In this document: positions 14,750-61,292 of the stretch, piece after piece
Position numbering within the stretch: the first letter of the stretch is position 1
Layout of the letters: every line of letters begins with the position of its first letter
Program-made: the position numbers and the translations under genes
DNA from: Amycolatopsis lexingtonensis
Lineage (GTDB): Bacteria > Actinomycetota > Actinomycetes > Mycobacteriales > Pseudonocardiaceae
Length of the DNA stretch: 64,000 nt
Assembly (NCBI RefSeq): GCF_014873755.1
Contig: NZ_JADBEG010000001.1
Coordinates: 6,298,501 to 6,362,500, forward strand
Direction: 5' to 3'
Notes under the pieces: generated by a model
The model's database searches: none
What the model was told of the DNA's origin: nothing
The model's input: the letters and a program-made list of their open reading frames with translations, nothing else

Positions 14750-14878
14750 GGGTCCTCCCCGGGTGCGCGGCTTCACCAGTGGATACGGGCGAGAACGGCG
14801 AAAAGTTGCGGTGACCTGTGGCGACGCTGCGTCACCGCAGCTCAGGACCCACGGGTGTGACGACGGCCACAACGCCCC

Positions 14879-14949
14879 AAGGTGGCCTTGGTTGCGTCGG
14901 ACGCACCGAAGGCCGCCTTGGGTGCGTCTCACGCACCGAAGGCCACATT
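14879..14949. repeat. Tandem 30-bp hairpin units interrupted by the IS element
   Basis: Two adjacent 30-bp units (14879-14908 and 14909-14938) share the pattern AAGG, then GGTTGCGTC or GGTGCGTC, then ACGCACCG. Each can form a small stem such as GGTGCGT/ACGCACC. A third unit starts at 14939 (AAGGCCACATT) and is broken by the insertion sequence; its remainder (ATTGGGGCGCTC) resumes at 15900. The units lie between the DUF3152 gene start and dapE. Confidence 0.7.
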
Positions 14950-15899
14950 GAGGTTTTCTCAGTAGCGTCCGTGGTGTTCGTGGTGGGTGAGGACGAGGGC
15001 TGCTTGGACGATGGTGCCGATGCGGTGTGGGCAGAGGCTGATGCGGTGTAGGGCTGACCAGCGGGTTTTGAGGATGGCCATGGCGCGTTCGCCGAGGGCG
15101 CGGGCTCGGGATTGCAGCTGGTTGTAGACCCGTTGGCGGAGGTGGAGGGGTGGTTGGCCGGCGGCTTTCTTGACCGGGGTGTAGATGCCGATGCCGGCGG
15201 AGTGGTAGGCCTTGTCGGCCAGGGTGGGCAGGCCGTGGGCTGCGGCGGCGGTTAACGCGCCGATGATGTCGAGGTCGCGGGCGGCGGAGAGGTCGTTGCG
15301 GGAGCCGGGCAGCACCGGGGAGACCCACAGCGGGAATCCGTCGGCGCTGGCCAGGAACTGGATGTTTCCGCCGAAGGCTCGGTGTTTGCCCGAGTACCAC
15401 AGGTGCACGGTCCGGCCGCGGTTCTTGCCTTTGGTTTTGGTCGTGGTCGCCGCGACCCGGTCGCAGGAGATGAGGCTGCCGTCGAGGATCACGTGGGTGT
15501 CACCCCGGGCGCGGCGGTCGGCCAGGACTTGGTGCAGGTCCGGGGCTTGGGCGGCGAGGGCGGTGATGGCTTCGTGCAGGTAGCGGTAGGCGGTGGCGGT
15601 GCTGATGTGGTGGTCGGTGGCCAGCCGGTGCACGGGGGTGGCGTCGCGGAACCAGCGCAGCGCCAGGACCGCGTGCCGGTAGGGGGTCAGGGCGCGCCGG
15701 CCGCGGCGGGTGCCGCGCCGCAGCCGCTCGGTCTGCAGGACACGGGCAACGAACCAGACCAGCTCGCGCGCCACGTCGAGGGTGGCGCCATAATTGATCA
15801 CGTGGGGCCTCTGGAACCTCGGACTTGATCTTCGCAAATCCAGTCCTACCAGGGGCCCCACGCCTATTCGCGGAACCACACCGCTACTGAGAAAACCTC
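14950..15899 (-). mobile_element. Complete IS5-type insertion sequence, 950 bp
   Basis: Perfect 18-bp terminal inverted repeats: GAGGTTTTCTCAGTAGCG at 14950-14967 and its complement at 15882-15899. The element is flanked by the direct repeat ATT at 14947-14949 and 15900-15902, the target duplication. Removing the element and one ATT restores a continuous third copy of the 30-bp repeat unit, which proves the boundaries. It holds one uninterrupted transposase gene. Intact ends, intact gene and intact duplication point to a recent insertion. Confidence 0.93.
14959..15801 (-). CDS. IS5-family transposase (DDE, HARBI-like)
   Basis: A 280-residue transposase that begins INYGATLDVARELVWFVARV after a GTG start at 15799-15801, like many Streptomyces IS5-group enzymes. 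A helix-turn-helix region (RLATDHHISTATAYRYL) precedes the catalytic core: first Asp in HVILDGSLISCDR, second in PGSRNDLSAARDL, ADKAYHSAG after it, and the Glu probably in LGERAMAILK. The frame is open to GTG 15879, which lies within the element, so a longer N-terminus is possible. The stop codon lies inside the left terminal repeat. Confidence 0.9.
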   Translation of the reverse strand: MINYGATLDVARELVWFVARVLQTERLRRGTRRGRRALTPYRHAVLALRWFRDATPVHRLATDHHISTATAYRYLHEAITALAAQAPDLHQVLADRRARGDTHVILDGSLISCDRVAATTTKTKGKNRGRTVHLWYSGKHRAFGGNIQFLASADGFPLWVSPVLPGSRNDLSAARDLDIIGALTAAAAHGLPTLADKAYHSAGIGIYTPVKKAAGQPPLHLRQRVYNQLQSRARALGERAMAILKTRWSALHRISLCPHRIGTIVQAALVLTHHEHHGRY

Positions 15900-47863: not shown

Positions 47864-48060
47864 CGGTTTCAGCTCCCCGGTGGGTGAATTTTCAACTGAC
47901 CCGACCCAAGTTAGGGCCCCGGAACCCCCGATCGAAGCATCGGAGGGTGATCGACAGGGAACCGACAGGGACCGGCAGTAACTCGAAAACCCGGTTGGCG
48001 AGGGCCGCCGCGAGCGCTATTTTCGCCCTGACCTGCGTCGACGACCGTGAGGAGACCCCG

Positions 48061-48168
48061 ATGCGCCGACAGACCGATCCGCCCGGCCTGTCACCCGCAT
48101 CACAAAGGATCCCCCACGACCGTGAAAACCCTGAACATCGGCATTCTCGCGCACGTCGACGCCGGTAA
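48061..48168 (+). CDS. Possible leader peptide overlapping the ribosomal-protection gene
   Basis: A 35-codon frame beginning at ATG 48061 with an excellent Shine-Dalgarno (GAGGAG at 48049-48054, six bases upstream). The product is Arg/Pro-rich, ending [14 protein letters not shown]. It runs past the GTG start of the next gene (48122) in another frame. That GTG has only a distant AAAGGA. Tet(M)-type genes are often preceded by leader peptides that couple translation to antibiotic stalling, so this is a candidate attenuator. Confidence 0.4.
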
Positions 48169-49975
48169 GACCAGCCTGACCGAGCGCCTGCTCTTCGAAG
48201 CGGGCGTCATCGACCGCCTCGGCAGCGTCGACCGGGGCGACACCCAGACCGACTCGCTCGAGCTCGAACGCCGTCGCGGCATCACCATCCGGTCCGCGGT
48301 GGCGTCGTTCCCGGCCGGCGACACCCGGATCACCCTGATCGACACCCCGGGCCACTCGGACTTCATCGCCGAGGTCGAGCGCGCCCTGCGCGTGCTCGAC
48401 GGCGCCGTCCTCGTGGTGTCCGCCGTCGAAGGCGTCCAAGCCCAGACCCGCGTGCTGATGCGCACCCTGCGCCGCCTCGCCATCCCGACACTGGTCTTCG
48501 TCAACAAGATCGACCGGCTGGGCGCCCGCGACCAGCTCGGCGACATCCGCGCGAAGCTGGCGCCGCGGGCGTTCGCGCTGCACACGACGTCGCCCGACGA
48601 GCTGGCCGAACTGCTGGCCGACGGCGACGACGCCTTCTTGGAGTCCTATGTGGAGGGCCACGCCGACGCCGCGGCCTGCCGCGCCGAGCTGGCCCGGCAG
48701 GTCGCCCGCGCCGAGCTGCACCCGGTGCTGACCGGCTCGGCGATCACCGGCGCCGGCGTCGCGGACCTGGTGACGGCGATGGCCGGGCTGCTCCCGGCGA
48801 CCGAGCGCACCGGCGACGGGCCGCTGGCCGCGACGGTGTTCAAGATCGACCGCGGCCGCGCCGGGGAGAAGGTCGCCTACGCCCGCCTGCACTCCGGATC
48901 CCTGGCGCCACGGCAGAAGATTTCCTTCTACCGCGGCGAAACCGAGTTCACCGGCCGGGTCTCCGCGGTCGACGTCGACGGCGAGGACGTGGCGCTCGCC
49001 GGGGACGTCGCCCGGGTGCGCGGCCTGCGCGAGGTCCGGATCGGCGACCGGCTCGGCTCCCCCGGTGCCGCCCGGGACGGCGGGTTCGCGCCGCCGAGCC
49101 TGGAGACCGTCGTGCGGCCGGTCCGGCCCGAGCAGGCCGCGGCGCTGTTCACCGCGCTGACCCGGCTGTCCGAAGAGGACCCGCTGATCGACGTCCGCCG
49201 GTACGGCCACGACGTTTCGGTGCGGCTCTACGGCGAAGTGCAGAAGGAGGTGCTGCGCTCGATGCTGGCCGACGGCGCCGGCATCGACGTCACCTTCGAG
49301 CGGACGCGCACGCTGTACGTCGAGAAACCCGTCGCCCGCGGCGAGGCCCTCGAGGAGCTGGACCCGGAGCAGCGGCTGTACTTCTTCGCGACGGTCGGGT
49401 TGCGGGTGGAGCCCGGCCCCGGGGTCACGTTCGGGCTGTCGGTGGAGCTGGGCTCGCTGCCCCTGGCGTTCCACAAGGCGATCGAGGAGACCGTCCACAG
49501 CACGCTCGAACAGGGGCTCTACGGCTGGGAGGTGCTGGACGTCGCCGTCACGCTGACGCACACGGCGTTCTTCAGCCCGAACAGCGTCGCGGGCGACTTC
49601 CGCAAGATGACGCCGCTGGTGCTCATGGCGGCGCTGCAGGAGGCCGGCACGCGGGTGCACGAGCCGGTGCACCGCTTCGAGCTGGAAGTCCCGGTGCACG
49701 CCGTCAGCGCGGTGCTGGTCAAGCTGGCCGAGCTGCGCGCGGTCCCCGGCGAGCCGGTCACCGCGGGCGGTTCCTGCACGCTGCACGGCACCATCCCGGC
49801 GGAACACGTTCACGAGTTCGAGCAGGCGCTCCCGGCCCTCGGCCAGGGCGAAGGCGTCTTCCTCAGCGAGTTCTGCGAGTACCGGCCGTACCCGGGGCCG
49901 CCGCCGATCCGGCCGCGGACGGGCGACAACCCCTTGGACCGCAAGGAATACCTGGCGCAGGTCGCCCGGCGTTAG
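48122..49975 (+). CDS. Tet(M)/OtrA-like ribosomal protection GTPase
   Basis: A 617-residue EF-G-like translation GTPase. The G domain has [20 protein letters not shown] (P-loop), GITI in switch [11 protein letters not shown] (G3) and VFVNKIDR (G4). Domains II-V follow as in ribosomal protection proteins, with [20 protein letters not shown] in the last domain. It is closest in style to OtrA/Tet of Streptomyces, which dislodges tetracycline from the ribosome. GTG 48122. It may protect against a self-made or environmental tetracycline. A housekeeping or different antibiotic role cannot be excluded. Confidence 0.9.
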
Positions 49976-56312: not shown

Positions 56313-56426
56313 TTCGGGTCACCTTCTCTGCAACGTCGGAAGAGTTCTGTCGATGTTAGCGCTCGTTCACAGCAGGTGGCGCCCTCGTCCTTGTGTCGTT
56401 GACCGCAGAATTCGTATGGTCGAGTG

Positions 56427-58085
56427 ATGCCGCTCACCGCGCCGACGACGCCGCCCGGTTTGCCCGCCTCCCTCGACTACCCCGAAGTCCCCGTGGGTTC
56501 GATCCTCGCCGCGGGCGCCGCCCGCTGGGGCGACCGGATCGCCTTCGAGCACGAAGGCCGCACCCTCACCTTCACCGAGACGTGGCACGCCGCGTGCCGG
56601 TTCGCGCACGCGCTCCGGGCCCGCGGCATCGGCCGCGGCGACGTCGTGGCGCTGCACCTGCCGAACTGCCTCGCGTTCCCGGTCGCCTACTACGGGACGC
56701 TGCTGGCCGGCGCCACCTTCAGCCCGGCGAACCCGCTGCTCCCGCCGGACGACCTCGCCTTCCAGCTCGCCGACTGCGAGGCCGCGGCCGTGGTGACGTT
56801 CGGCCCGGTCGCGGGCGCGCTGGCGAGCGTCGCCGACCGCGTCCCGGTGCGGCTGACGGTCGTCGTCGCCCCCGCCGGCGACCTGGCCGAGGGCGCCGTC
56901 GAGTTCGAGGCGTTCCAGGACGGCCGGCCCGCGACGCGTCCCGAGGTGGACATCGACGTCCACGAAGACCTCGCGCACCTGGCCTACACCGGCGGCACCA
57001 CGGGCCGTTCGAAGGGCGTGCGGCTCACGCACCGCAACGTCGTCGTCAACACCCTCCAGCACGCCTGCTGGGGCTCCGGCTCGGTGCCGGCGCTGGACGC
57101 GCGGGGCGACATCACCCTCGACCAGATCGGCAGCGAGGAGGAGTGGGCGACGCGCCTGGGCACCGGCGTCGCGATCAACCTGACGCCGTGGTTCCACGCG
57201 ATGGGCATCATCGGCGGCCTGAACGCGGCGGTCCTCGCGGGCACGACGATCGTCCTGCACACGCGCTTCGACCCGGCGGCGTACGTCGCCGACGCCGAAC
57301 GGCTGCGCATCACGGGCATCGGCGGCGCCCCGGCACTGTTCGCCGCGCTGCTCGCGACGCCGTCGTTCCACACCGCCGACCTGTCGTCGGTCCGCTCGAT
57401 CGGTTCGGGCGCGGCGCCGATGAACCACGCGATGATCACCGCGCTGCGCGAGCGCTTCCCCGGCGTCGTCGTCAGCGAGGGCTACGGCCTCACCGAAGCG
57501 ACGATGGGCGCGGTGATTTCGCCGACGTACCAGTCGGGAACGCGCAAGGTCGGCTCCGTGGGCGTCCCGATCTTCGACACGGAGGTCAAGATCGTCGCGG
57601 CCGAAGGCGGCGAAGACCCGCTCCCGGCGGGCGAGAAGGGCGAGGTCTGCCTCCGCGGCCCGCAGATCATGCAGGGCTACCGCAACCGCCCCCAGGAGAC
57701 GGCGGACGCCCTGGTCGACGGCTGGCTCCACACGGGCGACATCGGCATCCTCGACACCGACGGCTACCTCTCCATCGTAGACCGCAAGAAGGACATGCTG
57801 CTGTACAAGGGATACAACGTCTTCCCCCGCGAGCTCGAGGAACTGCTGGTGACGATGCCCGGTGTGGCGGCGGCCGCGGTGGTCGGCCGCCCGGACACCG
57901 AGGTCGGCGAGCTGCCGGTGGCGTTCGTGGTGCCGCGCGGGCCGCTGGACGCGGACGAGCTGATGGCCGCGGTCAACGAGAAGGTGCTGCCGTACAAGCG
58001 GTTGCGGGAAGTGCACGTGGTCGAGCAGATCCCGGTGTCCGCGGCGGGGAAGGTGCTGAAGCGGCAGCTGCGGGAACAGCTGTGA
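56427..58085 (+). CDS. Long-chain fatty-acid-CoA ligase (AMP-binding)
   Basis: A 552-residue adenylate-forming enzyme. P-loop-like YTGGTTGRSKGVRLTHRN (about 191-208), YGLTEATMGAVISP (A5), LHTGDIGILDTDGYLSIVDR (A7/A8) and the catalytic Lys in PVSAAGKVLKRQLRE (A10). It activates a carboxylic acid to acyl-CoA; chain length is not readable. ATG 56427, one codon after an in-frame GTG. It is divergent from fadE25, so both may be expressed for beta-oxidation. Confidence 0.92.
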   Translation: MPLTAPTTPPGLPASLDYPEVPVGSILAAGAARWGDRIAFEHEGRTLTFTETWHAACRFAHALRARGIGRGDVVALHLPNCLAFPVAYYGTLLAGATFSPANPLLPPDDLAFQLADCEAAAVVTFGPVAGALASVADRVPVRLTVVVAPAGDLAEGAVEFEAFQDGRPATRPEVDIDVHEDLAHLAYTGGTTGRSKGVRLTHRNVVVNTLQHACWGSGSVPALDARGDITLDQIGSEEEWATRLGTGVAINLTPWFHAMGIIGGLNAAVLAGTTIVLHTRFDPAAYVADAERLRITGIGGAPALFAALLATPSFHTADLSSVRSIGSGAAPMNHAMITALRERFPGVVVSEGYGLTEATMGAVISPTYQSGTRKVGSVGVPIFDTEVKIVAAEGGEDPLPAGEKGEVCLRGPQIMQGYRNRPQETADALVDGWLHTGDIGILDTDGYLSIVDRKKDMLLYKGYNVFPRELEELLVTMPGVAAAAVVGRPDTEVGELPVAFVVPRGPLDADELMAAVNEKVLPYKRLREVHVVEQIPVSAAGKVLKRQLREQL

Positions 58086-58229
58086 GGTAACCGGGCAATA
58101 TCGAATACGCATCGGACCGCGGGCGGCGTAACGAAATCCGGGCGGATCACGAAGCGCTTCCGAAGCTGTGGCGAACTCCTTATCATGGCGGGGATCGCCA
58201 CACAGTGGTCCGCCGGCCGGGGGAATTGC

Positions 58230-60791
58230 ATGGAGCAGAAGTTCACGGCAACCAGTCTGCCCGCGGCCGTGCGCTGGCTTTTCGAAACCAACGGCTACGA
58301 CGTCAGCGGTCCCGTCGAGCGCGGCGGCGTCGAAGTCGAGCTCGTCGCGACCCAGCTGTCGGGCTTCAGCGAGCAGAACGTCTACATCGAGCCCACGGTC
58401 CAGCAGGTGGACGACACGATGTACGACGGGTACCTCGCCAAGCTGACGCCGTTCCGCAACGAGCCCGGCGCGCAGCGGATGATCATTTCCCCGACGGGAT
58501 TCGCGCCGGGTGTCAAAGAACGAGCCGGTGCCGAGGGAATTCTCACCTTCACCTACGACGAGCTCTTCGCGAACTTCGAACGAGTTCAACCCTATTTGTC
58601 GTACATCCTGGGCGATTCACGTCAGGCCAAGACCCTGCAGGCGCTCGACGAAGTCTACGAAGAGCCCAACTTCGACGACAAGTACGGGAACCAGTGGGCG
58701 ACGCGCCACCTCAGCGAGTGGCTCTACGACGAGGACAAGGACCGGTCCTGGCTGATCATCGTCGGTGAGTACGGCACCGGCAAGACCGCGTTGACCGAGG
58801 TGCTGCAGAAGCGCTGGGCCGAGCTGTACCAGCAGGGCCTCAGCCCGCGCCTGCCGTTCCGGATCGAGCTGCGGGACTTCGCGAAGCAGTTCGACTCCCG
58901 CGGCTTGCTGCACCACTTCCTCGACCGGAACGAACTGACCCACCTCCCGGTTTCCTTCGTCGAAAGCATGATCTCCAACGGCCGCGTCGTGCTCCTGCTG
59001 GACGGCTACGACGAGATGGCCCAGTACCTGAACGTGCGCGAGCGGCGCGCGTGCTTGGAGGCGCTCGCGGACCTGGCGAGCAACGGGGCGAAAGGGATCT
59101 TGACGAGCCGCCCCAACTACTTCACGGAAGCCGAAGAGCTGCGGGTGTTCGAAGTCCTGTACCAGAAGCTGGGCGGGTCACACCGCCCGATGGACGTGCT
59201 GGACCGCGCCGTCGTCGAGCAAGAGCGCGAGGTCGACTCGCTGCTGGAGCGCTTCGTGCTCAACCGCGTGGAACGCAGCTTGCGGGACCTGACGTACGAA
59301 CAGACCATCGAACTGGTGCGCAGGCGCCTGAAAGACGACCCCGAGGGCGCCGACGTGGTCACCGGGCTGCTGTCGAAGGTCTTCCGCAACGAAGAGGACC
59401 GGAACGTATCGCTGTCCGGGAAGCCGGTGATCATCACCTACCTCCTCGACGTCGTCGAAGAACTGAAGAAGGACGACAACGAAGACCTCGAACGGAAGAT
59501 GTCCGAGTGGGACATCTACAACCTGATCGTGAACAAGCTCATGCTCCGCGACTGGGCGCGGACAGCGACCCTGTTCCCGACGGAGCGGCTTCTCTTCCTC
59601 CAGAAACTCGCCCTGCACACGTCGACGAGCCAGCAAAAGAGCGTCAACGAAGCCAACTTCCGCGAAGTCGTCCGAACGGTGTTCGAGTCGAAGATGACGA
59701 GGAAGCGCATCGAAGGCGTCACCGATGCGGAAGATTCCCTCTTCGACGACCTGCGGTCCTCCACCACGCTCACGAGAAGCACCGACAAAACCACCGCGCG
59801 GTGGCAGTTTTCCCACAACTCGCTGCGCGAGTTCCTGCTGGCCGGCTACCTCATCGACTGCCTCGTCGACGGCAAGCCGGAGCCGCGGTCCGTCCCGGTG
59901 ACCGACACCATGATCACCTTCGTCAACTCGATGCCGGAGGAGAAGCTGCAAGAGGCCTACACGCAGCTCTCCGCCCTCTGGCCGTCGCGGAAGATGCACA
60001 AGGGCATCGATCAGATGCTCACGCTGCTCTGGGGCGCGAAGCGGCACAACGAACGCAAGAACCGAAGCGTCCCCGCCAGCCTGCGCGACCTCATCGGCGA
60101 CAGCTTCGACCTCTCGAACTGCACGCTGACCGGCGTCAGCTTCAGTTCAGGGGACCACGTCGACCTGCGCGGCCTGAACGCGTCGAGCAGCATCATGACC
60201 GACACCGTCTTCACCGGTGTGGATCTGACCGGGTCGAACTTCTCCGAATCCGCGATCGACGCGTGCGTGCTCTCGAACGCCGACGTGACCGGCGCGGACT
60301 TCTCAAACCTCCTGATGCTGGACACGGAGATCACCGGGCTGGTGTGCACCGGAGCCGACTTCACCAACCTCGCCAAGGACTCGACGGCGCTGCTGAAGGT
60401 CGGGAAAGACCTCCACGTGCTCGACGCGACCAGGCTCCGGGGCTACCTGAAGCGGCGGGGTGCGATCACCGACCCCGTCAACCCGTACTTCATGTTCTGC
60501 CTGGACCAGAACTTCGACATCTGCGAGAAGATCTGCCGCGTCCTGCTGGACGGCGCGTGGCACCAGCGCCTCGGTTTGGAGCAGCGCGGCGCGTCCGAAC
60601 GGAACGTCAAACTGGCCAAGAAGTTCGTCCAGTTCCTGATCTCCGTCGGGCACGTCCAGATCAAGAACGGCACCGGCGGAAAGCTCATCGGCACCACGCA
60701 GAGCGGTCGCCCGGTCGTGGCCCGGCTGAGCGAGAACGCCCACATCGACGAGACGCTGCTGCCCTTCTTCGAGGAGAACTTGCGCCAGTAG
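58230..60791 (+). CDS. NACHT-domain STAND NTPase with pentapeptide repeats (probable anti-phage protein)
   Basis: An 853-residue protein. Residues 1-115 resemble a Mrr-type nuclease fold (VRWLFETNGYDVSG, then GGVEVELVAT), but where ExK would be expected it has VYIEPTVQ, so the active site looks degenerate. The NACHT NTPase has Walker A GEYGTGKT (179-186), Walker B VVLLLDGYDEM (253-263) and the sensor LTSRPNYF (291-298). FSHNSLREFLLAGYL (527-541) is the STAND winged-helix end. Residues 626-715 are pentapeptide repeats (FTGVDLTGSN, ADVTGADFSN); the last 135 residues are a novel helical domain. ATG 58230 follows GGGGGA. It is a single-gene unit with AT-richer codons between housekeeping genes, as in bacterial NACHT defence genes. 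Confidence 0.85.
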   Translation: MEQKFTATSLPAAVRWLFETNGYDVSGPVERGGVEVELVATQLSGFSEQNVYIEPTVQQVDDTMYDGYLAKLTPFRNEPGAQRMIISPTGFAPGVKERAGAEGILTFTYDELFANFERVQPYLSYILGDSRQAKTLQALDEVYEEPNFDDKYGNQWATRHLSEWLYDEDKDRSWLIIVGEYGTGKTALTEVLQKRWAELYQQGLSPRLPFRIELRDFAKQFDSRGLLHHFLDRNELTHLPVSFVESMISNGRVVLLLDGYDEMAQYLNVRERRACLEALADLASNGAKGILTSRPNYFTEAEELRVFEVLYQKLGGSHRPMDVLDRAVVEQEREVDSLLERFVLNRVERSLRDLTYEQTIELVRRRLKDDPEGADVVTGLLSKVFRNEEDRNVSLSGKPVIITYLLDVVEELKKDDNEDLERKMSEWDIYNLIVNKLMLRDWARTATLFPTERLLFLQKLALHTSTSQQKSVNEANFREVVRTVFESKMTRKRIEGVTDAEDSLFDDLRSSTTLTRSTDKTTARWQFSHNSLREFLLAGYLIDCLVDGKPEPRSVPVTDTMITFVNSMPEEKLQEAYTQLSALWPSRKMHKGIDQMLTLLWGAKRHNERKNRSVPASLRDLIGDSFDLSNCTLTGVSFSSGDHVDLRGLNASSSIMTDTVFTGVDLTGSNFSESAIDACVLSNADVTGADFSNLLMLDTEITGLVCTGADFTNLAKDSTALLKVGKDLHVLDATRLRGYLKRRGAITDPVNPYFMFCLDQNFDICEKICRVLLDGAWHQRLGLEQRGASERNVKLAKKFVQFLISVGHVQIKNGTGGKLIGTTQSGRPVVARLSENAHIDETLLPFFEENLRQ

Positions 60792-60794
60792 GAC

Positions 60795-61292
60795 TCAGTG
60801 GCCGGTCTTCGCGCGCAGGGCCGCGTCCTTGTCCAGGACCAGCTTCTCCAGGTCCTGCTGGAACTTCGCCATCTTCGAGCGCAGGCCTTCGTCGGACGCC
60901 GCCAGGATGCGGACGGCCAGGAGGCCCGCGTTGCGGGCGCCGCCCACCGAGACCGTCGCCACCGGGACGCCGGCCGGCATCTGGACGATCGACAGGAGGG
61001 AGTCCATGCCGTCCAGGTACTTCAGGGGGACCGGGACGCCGATCACCGGGAGGACCGTGGCCGAGGCGACCATGCCCGGGAGGTGGGCCGCGCCGCCCGC
61101 GCCCGCGATGATCACGCGGATGCCGCGGGCCACCGCCGAGGTCGCGTAGTCCAGCATGCGCTGGGGCGTCCGGTGCGCCGAGTAGACGCCGACCTCGTAC
61201 TCGACGCCGAACTCGTCCAGCGCCGCGCCGGCCGCCTCGAGGGTCGGCCAGTCCGAGTCGCTGCCCATGATCACGCCCACCTGCGGCGCCAT
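60795..61292 (-). CDS. purE: N5-carboxyaminoimidazole ribonucleotide mutase
   Basis: A 165-residue class I PurE that converts N5-CAIR to CAIR in purine synthesis. [18 protein letters not shown] at the N-terminus, the active-site [11 protein letters not shown], and [20 protein letters not shown] are diagnostic. ATG 61292; a GTG at 61301 would add three residues. It follows purK by 14 bases in the same operon. Its stop is three bases from the NACHT stop (convergent). Confidence 0.95.

Follow-up and report, generated by a model that had tools for sequence, protein, structure and literature searches.

Avs (AVAST) proteins belong to the STAND class (signal transduction ATPases with numerous domains) and combine a STAND switch with an N-terminal effector and a C-terminal sensor. 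Animal NLRs (nucleotide-binding leucine-rich repeat receptors), such as NLRC4, NOD2 and NLRP3, carry leucine-rich repeats (LRRs) and a CARD or PYD. For the NACHT proteins of bacteria, the published bNACHT clade tree is said to have been defined by Kibby 2023. Two members of its clade 6, bNACHT25 and bNACHT32, are single proteins with a central NACHT domain and an N-terminal domain of PD-(D/E)XK type, whose nuclease is active and needed, since D48A abolishes defence (accessible part of PMC12169576). Here, we analysed a 64,000-nucleotide stretch of the genome of the soil bacterium Amycolatopsis lexingtonensis (contig NZ_JADBEG010000001.1, positions 6,298,501 to 6,362,500; hereafter the window, whose numbering is used throughout) and one gene in it, which encodes a NACHT protein with an N-terminal Mrr-like domain, a pentapeptide-repeat segment and a further C-terminal domain (Table 1). 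We propose, with a probability of about 0.68, that the product is a stand-alone, horizontally spreading, NLR-like anti-invader protein of the NACHT STAND type, and we infer its defence role, its trigger and its effector activity.

Domain layout and likeness to known systems

A preliminary description of this DNA, made from the letters and their open reading frames (ORFs), had proposed a single-gene NACHT STAND protein in the order effector, switch, sensor. This order is supported. The NACHT match scored 45.6 bits (Pfam cut-off 26.7), with intact Walker A and Walker B, and the Pentapeptide match scored 32.0 bits (cut-off 20.2); both matches are therefore far beyond chance. The Walker A, Walker B, LTSRP and EPT motifs all lie at the positions first given for them. 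Helical and winged-helix domains are present C-terminal of the nucleoside triphosphatase (NTPase) core, include FSHNSLREFL (residues 527-536; 59808-59837), and are predicted to complete an NLR-like core. The pentapeptide segment, with repeats at about residues 643-701, is recognised both by a profile above its cut-off and by a right-handed solenoid, and the C-terminus, in which no family had been recognised, models as a probable winged helix. The layout had also been called uncommon. Given that NACHT was found in 53/53 and pentapeptide repeats in 53/53 members scanned, it is instead standard for the family. A protein search returned at least 356 relatives at E 1e-3 or better, and by our reading all of the best 120 of these bear both Pfam labels, all but three having 834-887 residues.

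We compared the protein with the systems above. Avs4 took rank 37 in a fold search (E 9.6e-8), and in this ranking animal NLRs lie nearer to the NACHT core, at 14% identity. From the latter the protein differs in carrying pentapeptide repeats instead of LRRs and an Mrr-like domain instead of a CARD or PYD. We take HalA to have a role in the Hailong defence system. This protein (PDB 9nyi), which has been studied with oligodeoxyadenylate, matches the pentapeptide segment by profile at E 0.002; the match is confined to the repeats, and better scores went to designed and stand-alone pentapeptide proteins. The likeness to bNACHT25 and bNACHT32 is one of descriptions set side by side: they end in NCH1, whereas pentapeptide repeats and a probable winged helix are found here, and the canonical lysine, absent in the present protein, contrasts with their active nuclease (accessible part of PMC12169576). 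TRADD-N conflict proteins are described as having pentapeptide repeats as one of their kinds of C-terminal repeat (accessible part of PMC8195603). We found no description of the family in the literature searched, which lay mostly outside subscription journals, nor in the accessible parts of PMC7159879, PMC12169576, PMC10853773, PMC8195603, PMC12839542 and PMC13092281.

The N-terminal Mrr-like domain

Two MAFFT alignments with E. coli Mrr disagree around the motif, so we placed the catalytic lysine by motif spacing (16 and 35 in E. coli Mrr, 17 and 36 here) and by the pair VYVQAK/VYIEAT. At that position (residue 56), threonine takes the place of the lysine of Mrr's QxK in 119/121 relatives, and the EPT at residues 54-56 is this copy's version of an E-x-T found throughout the family. 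Because D37, E54, K64 and K71 are kept at 94-99% across the 121 members beside T56, the family's N-terminal site is a conserved variant and not random decay. The N-terminus had been described as degenerate and nuclease-like. An Mrr-like domain without the catalytic lysine is indeed what we see, but decay peculiar to this gene is not, T56 being shared by nearly all members, though the present copy has changed further (D37 to E, K64 to M). Because the motif is altered further in this branch, the present domain may have lost catalysis even if its relatives have it.

Profile matches varied among members. With Mrr_cat (cut-off 21 bits), the present N-terminal piece gave no match, relatives' pieces scored 20.7, 32.8, 31.1 and 28.5 bits, and 24/53 scanned members matched at E 0.1 or better. 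With NA-iREase1 (PF22722, cut-off 27 bits), the present piece again gave no match and pieces from three relatives scored 13.0, 15.8 and 19.3 bits. The domain is like both families in its D, (Q/E)xK/T and GF spacing, to within one residue; it differs from them in having threonine for lysine and in matching neither profile. Compared by sequence with solved structures, the N-terminus gave chance-level matches only, and a single-sequence hidden Markov model comparison with E. coli Mrr aligned the GFT region alone. The match to 1y88, a protein that we take to have a nuclease-like fold, covers model residues 6-204 in a whole-model fold search that barely tests residues 1-116.

These results bear on a rival explanation, in which the N-terminal domain is an inactive restriction endonuclease (REase) that does not cut but serves as a sensor or decoy by binding a nucleotide or a nucleic acid, the output lying elsewhere, for example in winged-helix DNA binding or in assembly. 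We consider this a serious possibility, somewhat short of an even chance. It agrees with the near-universal threonine and with the altered D37 and K64 of the present copy, and the Pfam family "NACHT-associated inactive restriction endonuclease 1" is weakly matched by 3/53 members (best E 0.0051). The accessible part of PMC12839542 likewise proposes that inactive REases paired with NTPases are often nucleotide sensors. Against it, the four other site residues are conserved beyond the needs of a dead site, and the NA-iREase1 scores given above are all below the cut-off.

Distribution, genomic setting and sequence change

The gene is rare. At E 1e-60 it was found in 1/396 Actinomycetota genomes, namely its own, and in 2/200 genomes drawn from the taxonomic family. 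Within Amycolatopsis, 36/80 genomes match at E 1e-3, 33 of them through partial NACHT or pentapeptide matches; rather than recurring at the same place in nearly all relatives, the full-length gene is present in 3/80 species. The nearest named relative, 96% identical, comes from Amycolatopsis eburnea. From a contig scan with two peptide patterns as seeds we obtained 36 loci; 23 with weaker matches were set aside, and we worked with the other 13, whose matches are long and strong. Among these 13 are loci from Verrucomicrobia, Microbacterium, Roseomonas, Albimonas, Corallococcus, Caulobacter, Actinokineospora, Micromonospora and Sphingomonas, as well as the A. eburnea copy (L141), which overlaps the genus survey and is not independent of it. 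The gene's GC content is below that of the rest of the locus in 13/13 (for example 0.41 vs 0.71, 0.47 vs 0.70, and 0.64 vs 0.71 in A. eburnea). We trust this unfiltered base composition over the neighbour comparison of GC at third codon positions (GC3), which is biased in loci above 58% GC by an ORF filter that favours high GC3. The AT-richer codons first reported for the present gene were confirmed (GC3 0.91 vs 0.96 for the ligase and 0.99 for purE).

The neighbourhoods are unrelated: in 12/13 loci nothing matches the purE, ligase or dehydrogenase found here, and in the remaining one, that of A. eburnea, the gene occupies the same site. This speaks against a second alternative, that of a STAND-type transcription regulator whose C-terminal winged helix binds DNA and is switched by the NACHT core in answer to a cell signal. 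STAND regulators with DNA-binding domains are known, MalT among them, and the probable winged helix is basic on average. The gene is nevertheless rare and scattered, it also carries an Mrr-like domain, and no conserved target gene lies alongside, and we regard a regulator as unlikely.

Stop codons fall within the matched stretch in 3/13 loci (Occultella, Micromonospora, Sphingomonas), and the Rhodospirillaceae copy is shortened (L150, L151, L152, L153), which suggests frequent loss. As read from these sequences, the distribution is that of a gene transferred on its own and frequently lost. Relatives were absent from viral contigs in a search seeded by two peptide patterns and were not found in phage records. 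Carriage on plasmids was rejected, as ten plasmid records matched only partially (at most 48% of the query, 24-30% identity).

The preliminary description had placed the gene as an insertion between an acyl-CoA ligase and purE. The genus survey agrees, and shows a variable site and a patchy occurrence of the gene. We found purE in 80/80 genomes and the ligase nearby in 77/80 fetched regions. The ligase-purE gap is below 150 bases in 40/77 and reaches 300 bases or more in 36/80 regions, three of which hold the NACHT gene; all three full-length Amycolatopsis copies sit at this junction. Genome G069, whose PurE is identical by protein, clusters with the carriers on a flanking-gene tree (28/80 loci used) and has 41 bases at an empty site. 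One gain followed by loss through recombination, or several gains, are both possible. The ligase of carriers stops a few codons earlier than in five compared gaps below 120 bases, and no mobile-element genes or repeats were seen by eye at the carrier junctions.

More generally, the junction takes up variable cargo in Amycolatopsis, and other species carry several unrelated gene sets there (L064, L066-L068, L070, L072, L082, L084, L088 and others). By eye, these comprise a regulator and reductase pair, membrane proteins, an acyl-CoA dehydrogenase, secretion-related small proteins and biosynthetic genes; in L090-L092, L099, L101 and L108 the cargo is AT-richer, about 2.6-3.3 kb long, and includes small proteins that resemble ESX/WXG-type secretion partners and a lipoprotein. 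A survey of the purE locus for variable defence genes had been suggested; the site is variable across the 80 genomes, but we rejected a defence hotspot, since other species' cargo looks ordinary and mostly metabolic or envelope-like (by eye, no family search), although it may include an unrecognised defence gene. Nor was a defence island seen around the present gene, the ten flanking ORFs tested having no PADLOC match. In L071 (G075), the 118-base gap holds a near-perfect palindrome (arms of about 22 bases by eye) followed by an apparent second ligase 3' end. A 20-base piece of this palindrome has two matches with three mismatches in the window, 14876-14895 (+) and 14933-14952 (-), and none in shuffles; possibly, the palindrome is a dispersed repeat with a part in the making of the variable site.

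We estimated dN/dS (nonsynonymous to synonymous change) by a simple pairwise count on three Amycolatopsis sequences, which share branches and so give non-independent pairs. In G000, G017 and G041 alike the copy is intact; whole-gene values are 0.11-0.19, and the gene is maintained in these genomes. This weighs against a third alternative, that the gene is a passenger or is decaying and has at present no function in the strain, for which one can cite the internal stops in three relatives' loci, the shortened fourth, and the empty site of G069 among the carriers; we give it little credence. By segment, dN/dS is 0-0.06 for NACHT, 0.02-0.13 for the C-terminus, 0.18-0.36 for the N-terminus and 0.29-0.66 for the pentapeptide segment. 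Amino-acid changes exceed those in the rest of the protein in the pentapeptide segment (P 1.9e-5, 0.008 and 1.0e-5 for the three pairs) and, less evenly, in the N-terminus (P 0.16, 1.0e-7 and 7.4e-6). Of 30 variable N-terminal sites, 14 lie within residues 31-37 and 55-68 (Fisher P 1.1e-5, for intervals picked post hoc). Mean pairwise identity among the 121 members is least in the pentapeptide segment (0.30), followed by residues 551-610 (0.33), the C-terminus (0.38), the N-terminus (0.56) and NACHT (0.71). This pattern fits a pentapeptide segment that serves as a recognition surface, together with an N-terminus that is changing in this branch.

The genome around the gene is a single contig of 10.74 Mb. 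Two in-frame ATGs, at 58185 (868 residues) and 58230 (853 residues), could open the frame. The longer frame is not conserved, since the stretch from the upstream ATG has 45 bases here and 44 in G017; GGGGGAATTGC precedes the 58230 start and is common to the G017 and G041 copies. In the intergenic stretch before the gene (58086-58229), GAAGCGCTTC and a TATCAT box are, by eye, common to the same two copies and may be the gene's own promoter. Farther upstream, 48047-49975 encodes an elongation-factor-G-like protein with GTP_EFTU, EFG_IV and EFG_C domains, which may be of the ribosome-protection kind.

Table 1. Features of the NACHT gene and its two neighbours, in window positions
Feature	Position	Strand	Basis or remark
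853-residue stand-alone NACHT STAND protein gene	58230..60791, stop codon included	+	open frame, Pfam, start comparison
N-terminal Mrr-like domain, residues 1-118	58230..58583	+	D37->E; E54-x-T56 for Mrr's QxK; K64->M; K71 kept
NACHT nucleotide-binding domain, residues 171-310	58740..59159	+	PF05729 residues 175-301, E 8.7e-12
Walker A GEYGTGKT, residues 179-186	58764..58787	+	translation, family alignment
Walker B LLLDGYDEM, residues 255-263	58992..59018	+	translation, family alignment
LTSRP (sensor-like), residues 291-295	59100..59114	+	T292 and R294 in 121/121
Helical and winged-helix part of predicted NLR-like core, residues 311-610	59160..60059	+	
Pentapeptide-repeat solenoid, residues about 626-722, net charge -11	60105..60395	+	highest dN/dS segment
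C-terminal domain, residues 726-853, probable winged helix, net charge +5	60405..60788	+	
Upstream neighbour, acyl-CoA ligase (AMP-binding enzyme)	56424..58085	+	PF00501 E 1.4e-87
Downstream neighbour, purE, convergent	60795..61292	-	PF00731 E 2.5e-65

Possible mechanism and meaning

We envisage an anti-invader protein that would work in three steps: (i) the pentapeptide solenoid and the probable winged helix would recognise an invader product or a disturbed host component; (ii) nucleotide exchange would open the NLR-like core, and the protein would oligomerise; and (iii) the Mrr-like domains, now clustered, would target nucleic acid, in the likeliest case as an atypical nuclease that dispenses with the canonical ExK lysine and otherwise as a binder. 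In a more speculative version, to which we assign a low probability, the acidic solenoid would imitate DNA within the protein itself, sitting on the basic winged helix (or on the Mrr-like domain) and keeping the core closed until an invader DNA-binding protein, or DNA as such, competes and assembly follows. The N-terminus would in that case be a PD-(D/E)XK variant in which the catalytic lysine no longer lies on the ExK strand but on the helix after it (K64 or K71).

Several observations count against a defence protein of this kind. The canonical catalytic lysine is absent throughout the family, the winged-helix assignment of the C-terminal domain is probable and of moderate confidence, and the defence role is argued from sequence. 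PADLOC-DB 2.0.0, Avs included, gave no family for the protein itself at E 1 or better, and ten flanking ORFs between 48047 and 63817 had no PADLOC match at E 0.01; among the 53 members there were weak matches to PDC-S60 (16, best 1.5e-7), mad8 (22, best 1.2e-4), PtuA (31, best 8.2e-4) and others. Foreign composition and patchiness equally suit other mobile genes. Finally, when dN is taken without dS, the value for the N-terminus is at least as high as that for the pentapeptide segment in two of three pairs (0.133 vs 0.093, 0.131 vs 0.131).

If the protein is protective, it would represent an NLR-like defence family, itself without a PADLOC-DB 2.0.0 match, spread as single genes across several phyla and lying outside recognised defence islands, where island-based discovery would tend to miss it. 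Pentapeptide repeats would then do the job that LRRs do in animal NLRs. With this family one could also test cleanly whether REase domains that lack the canonical lysine serve STAND proteins as nucleases or as sensors.
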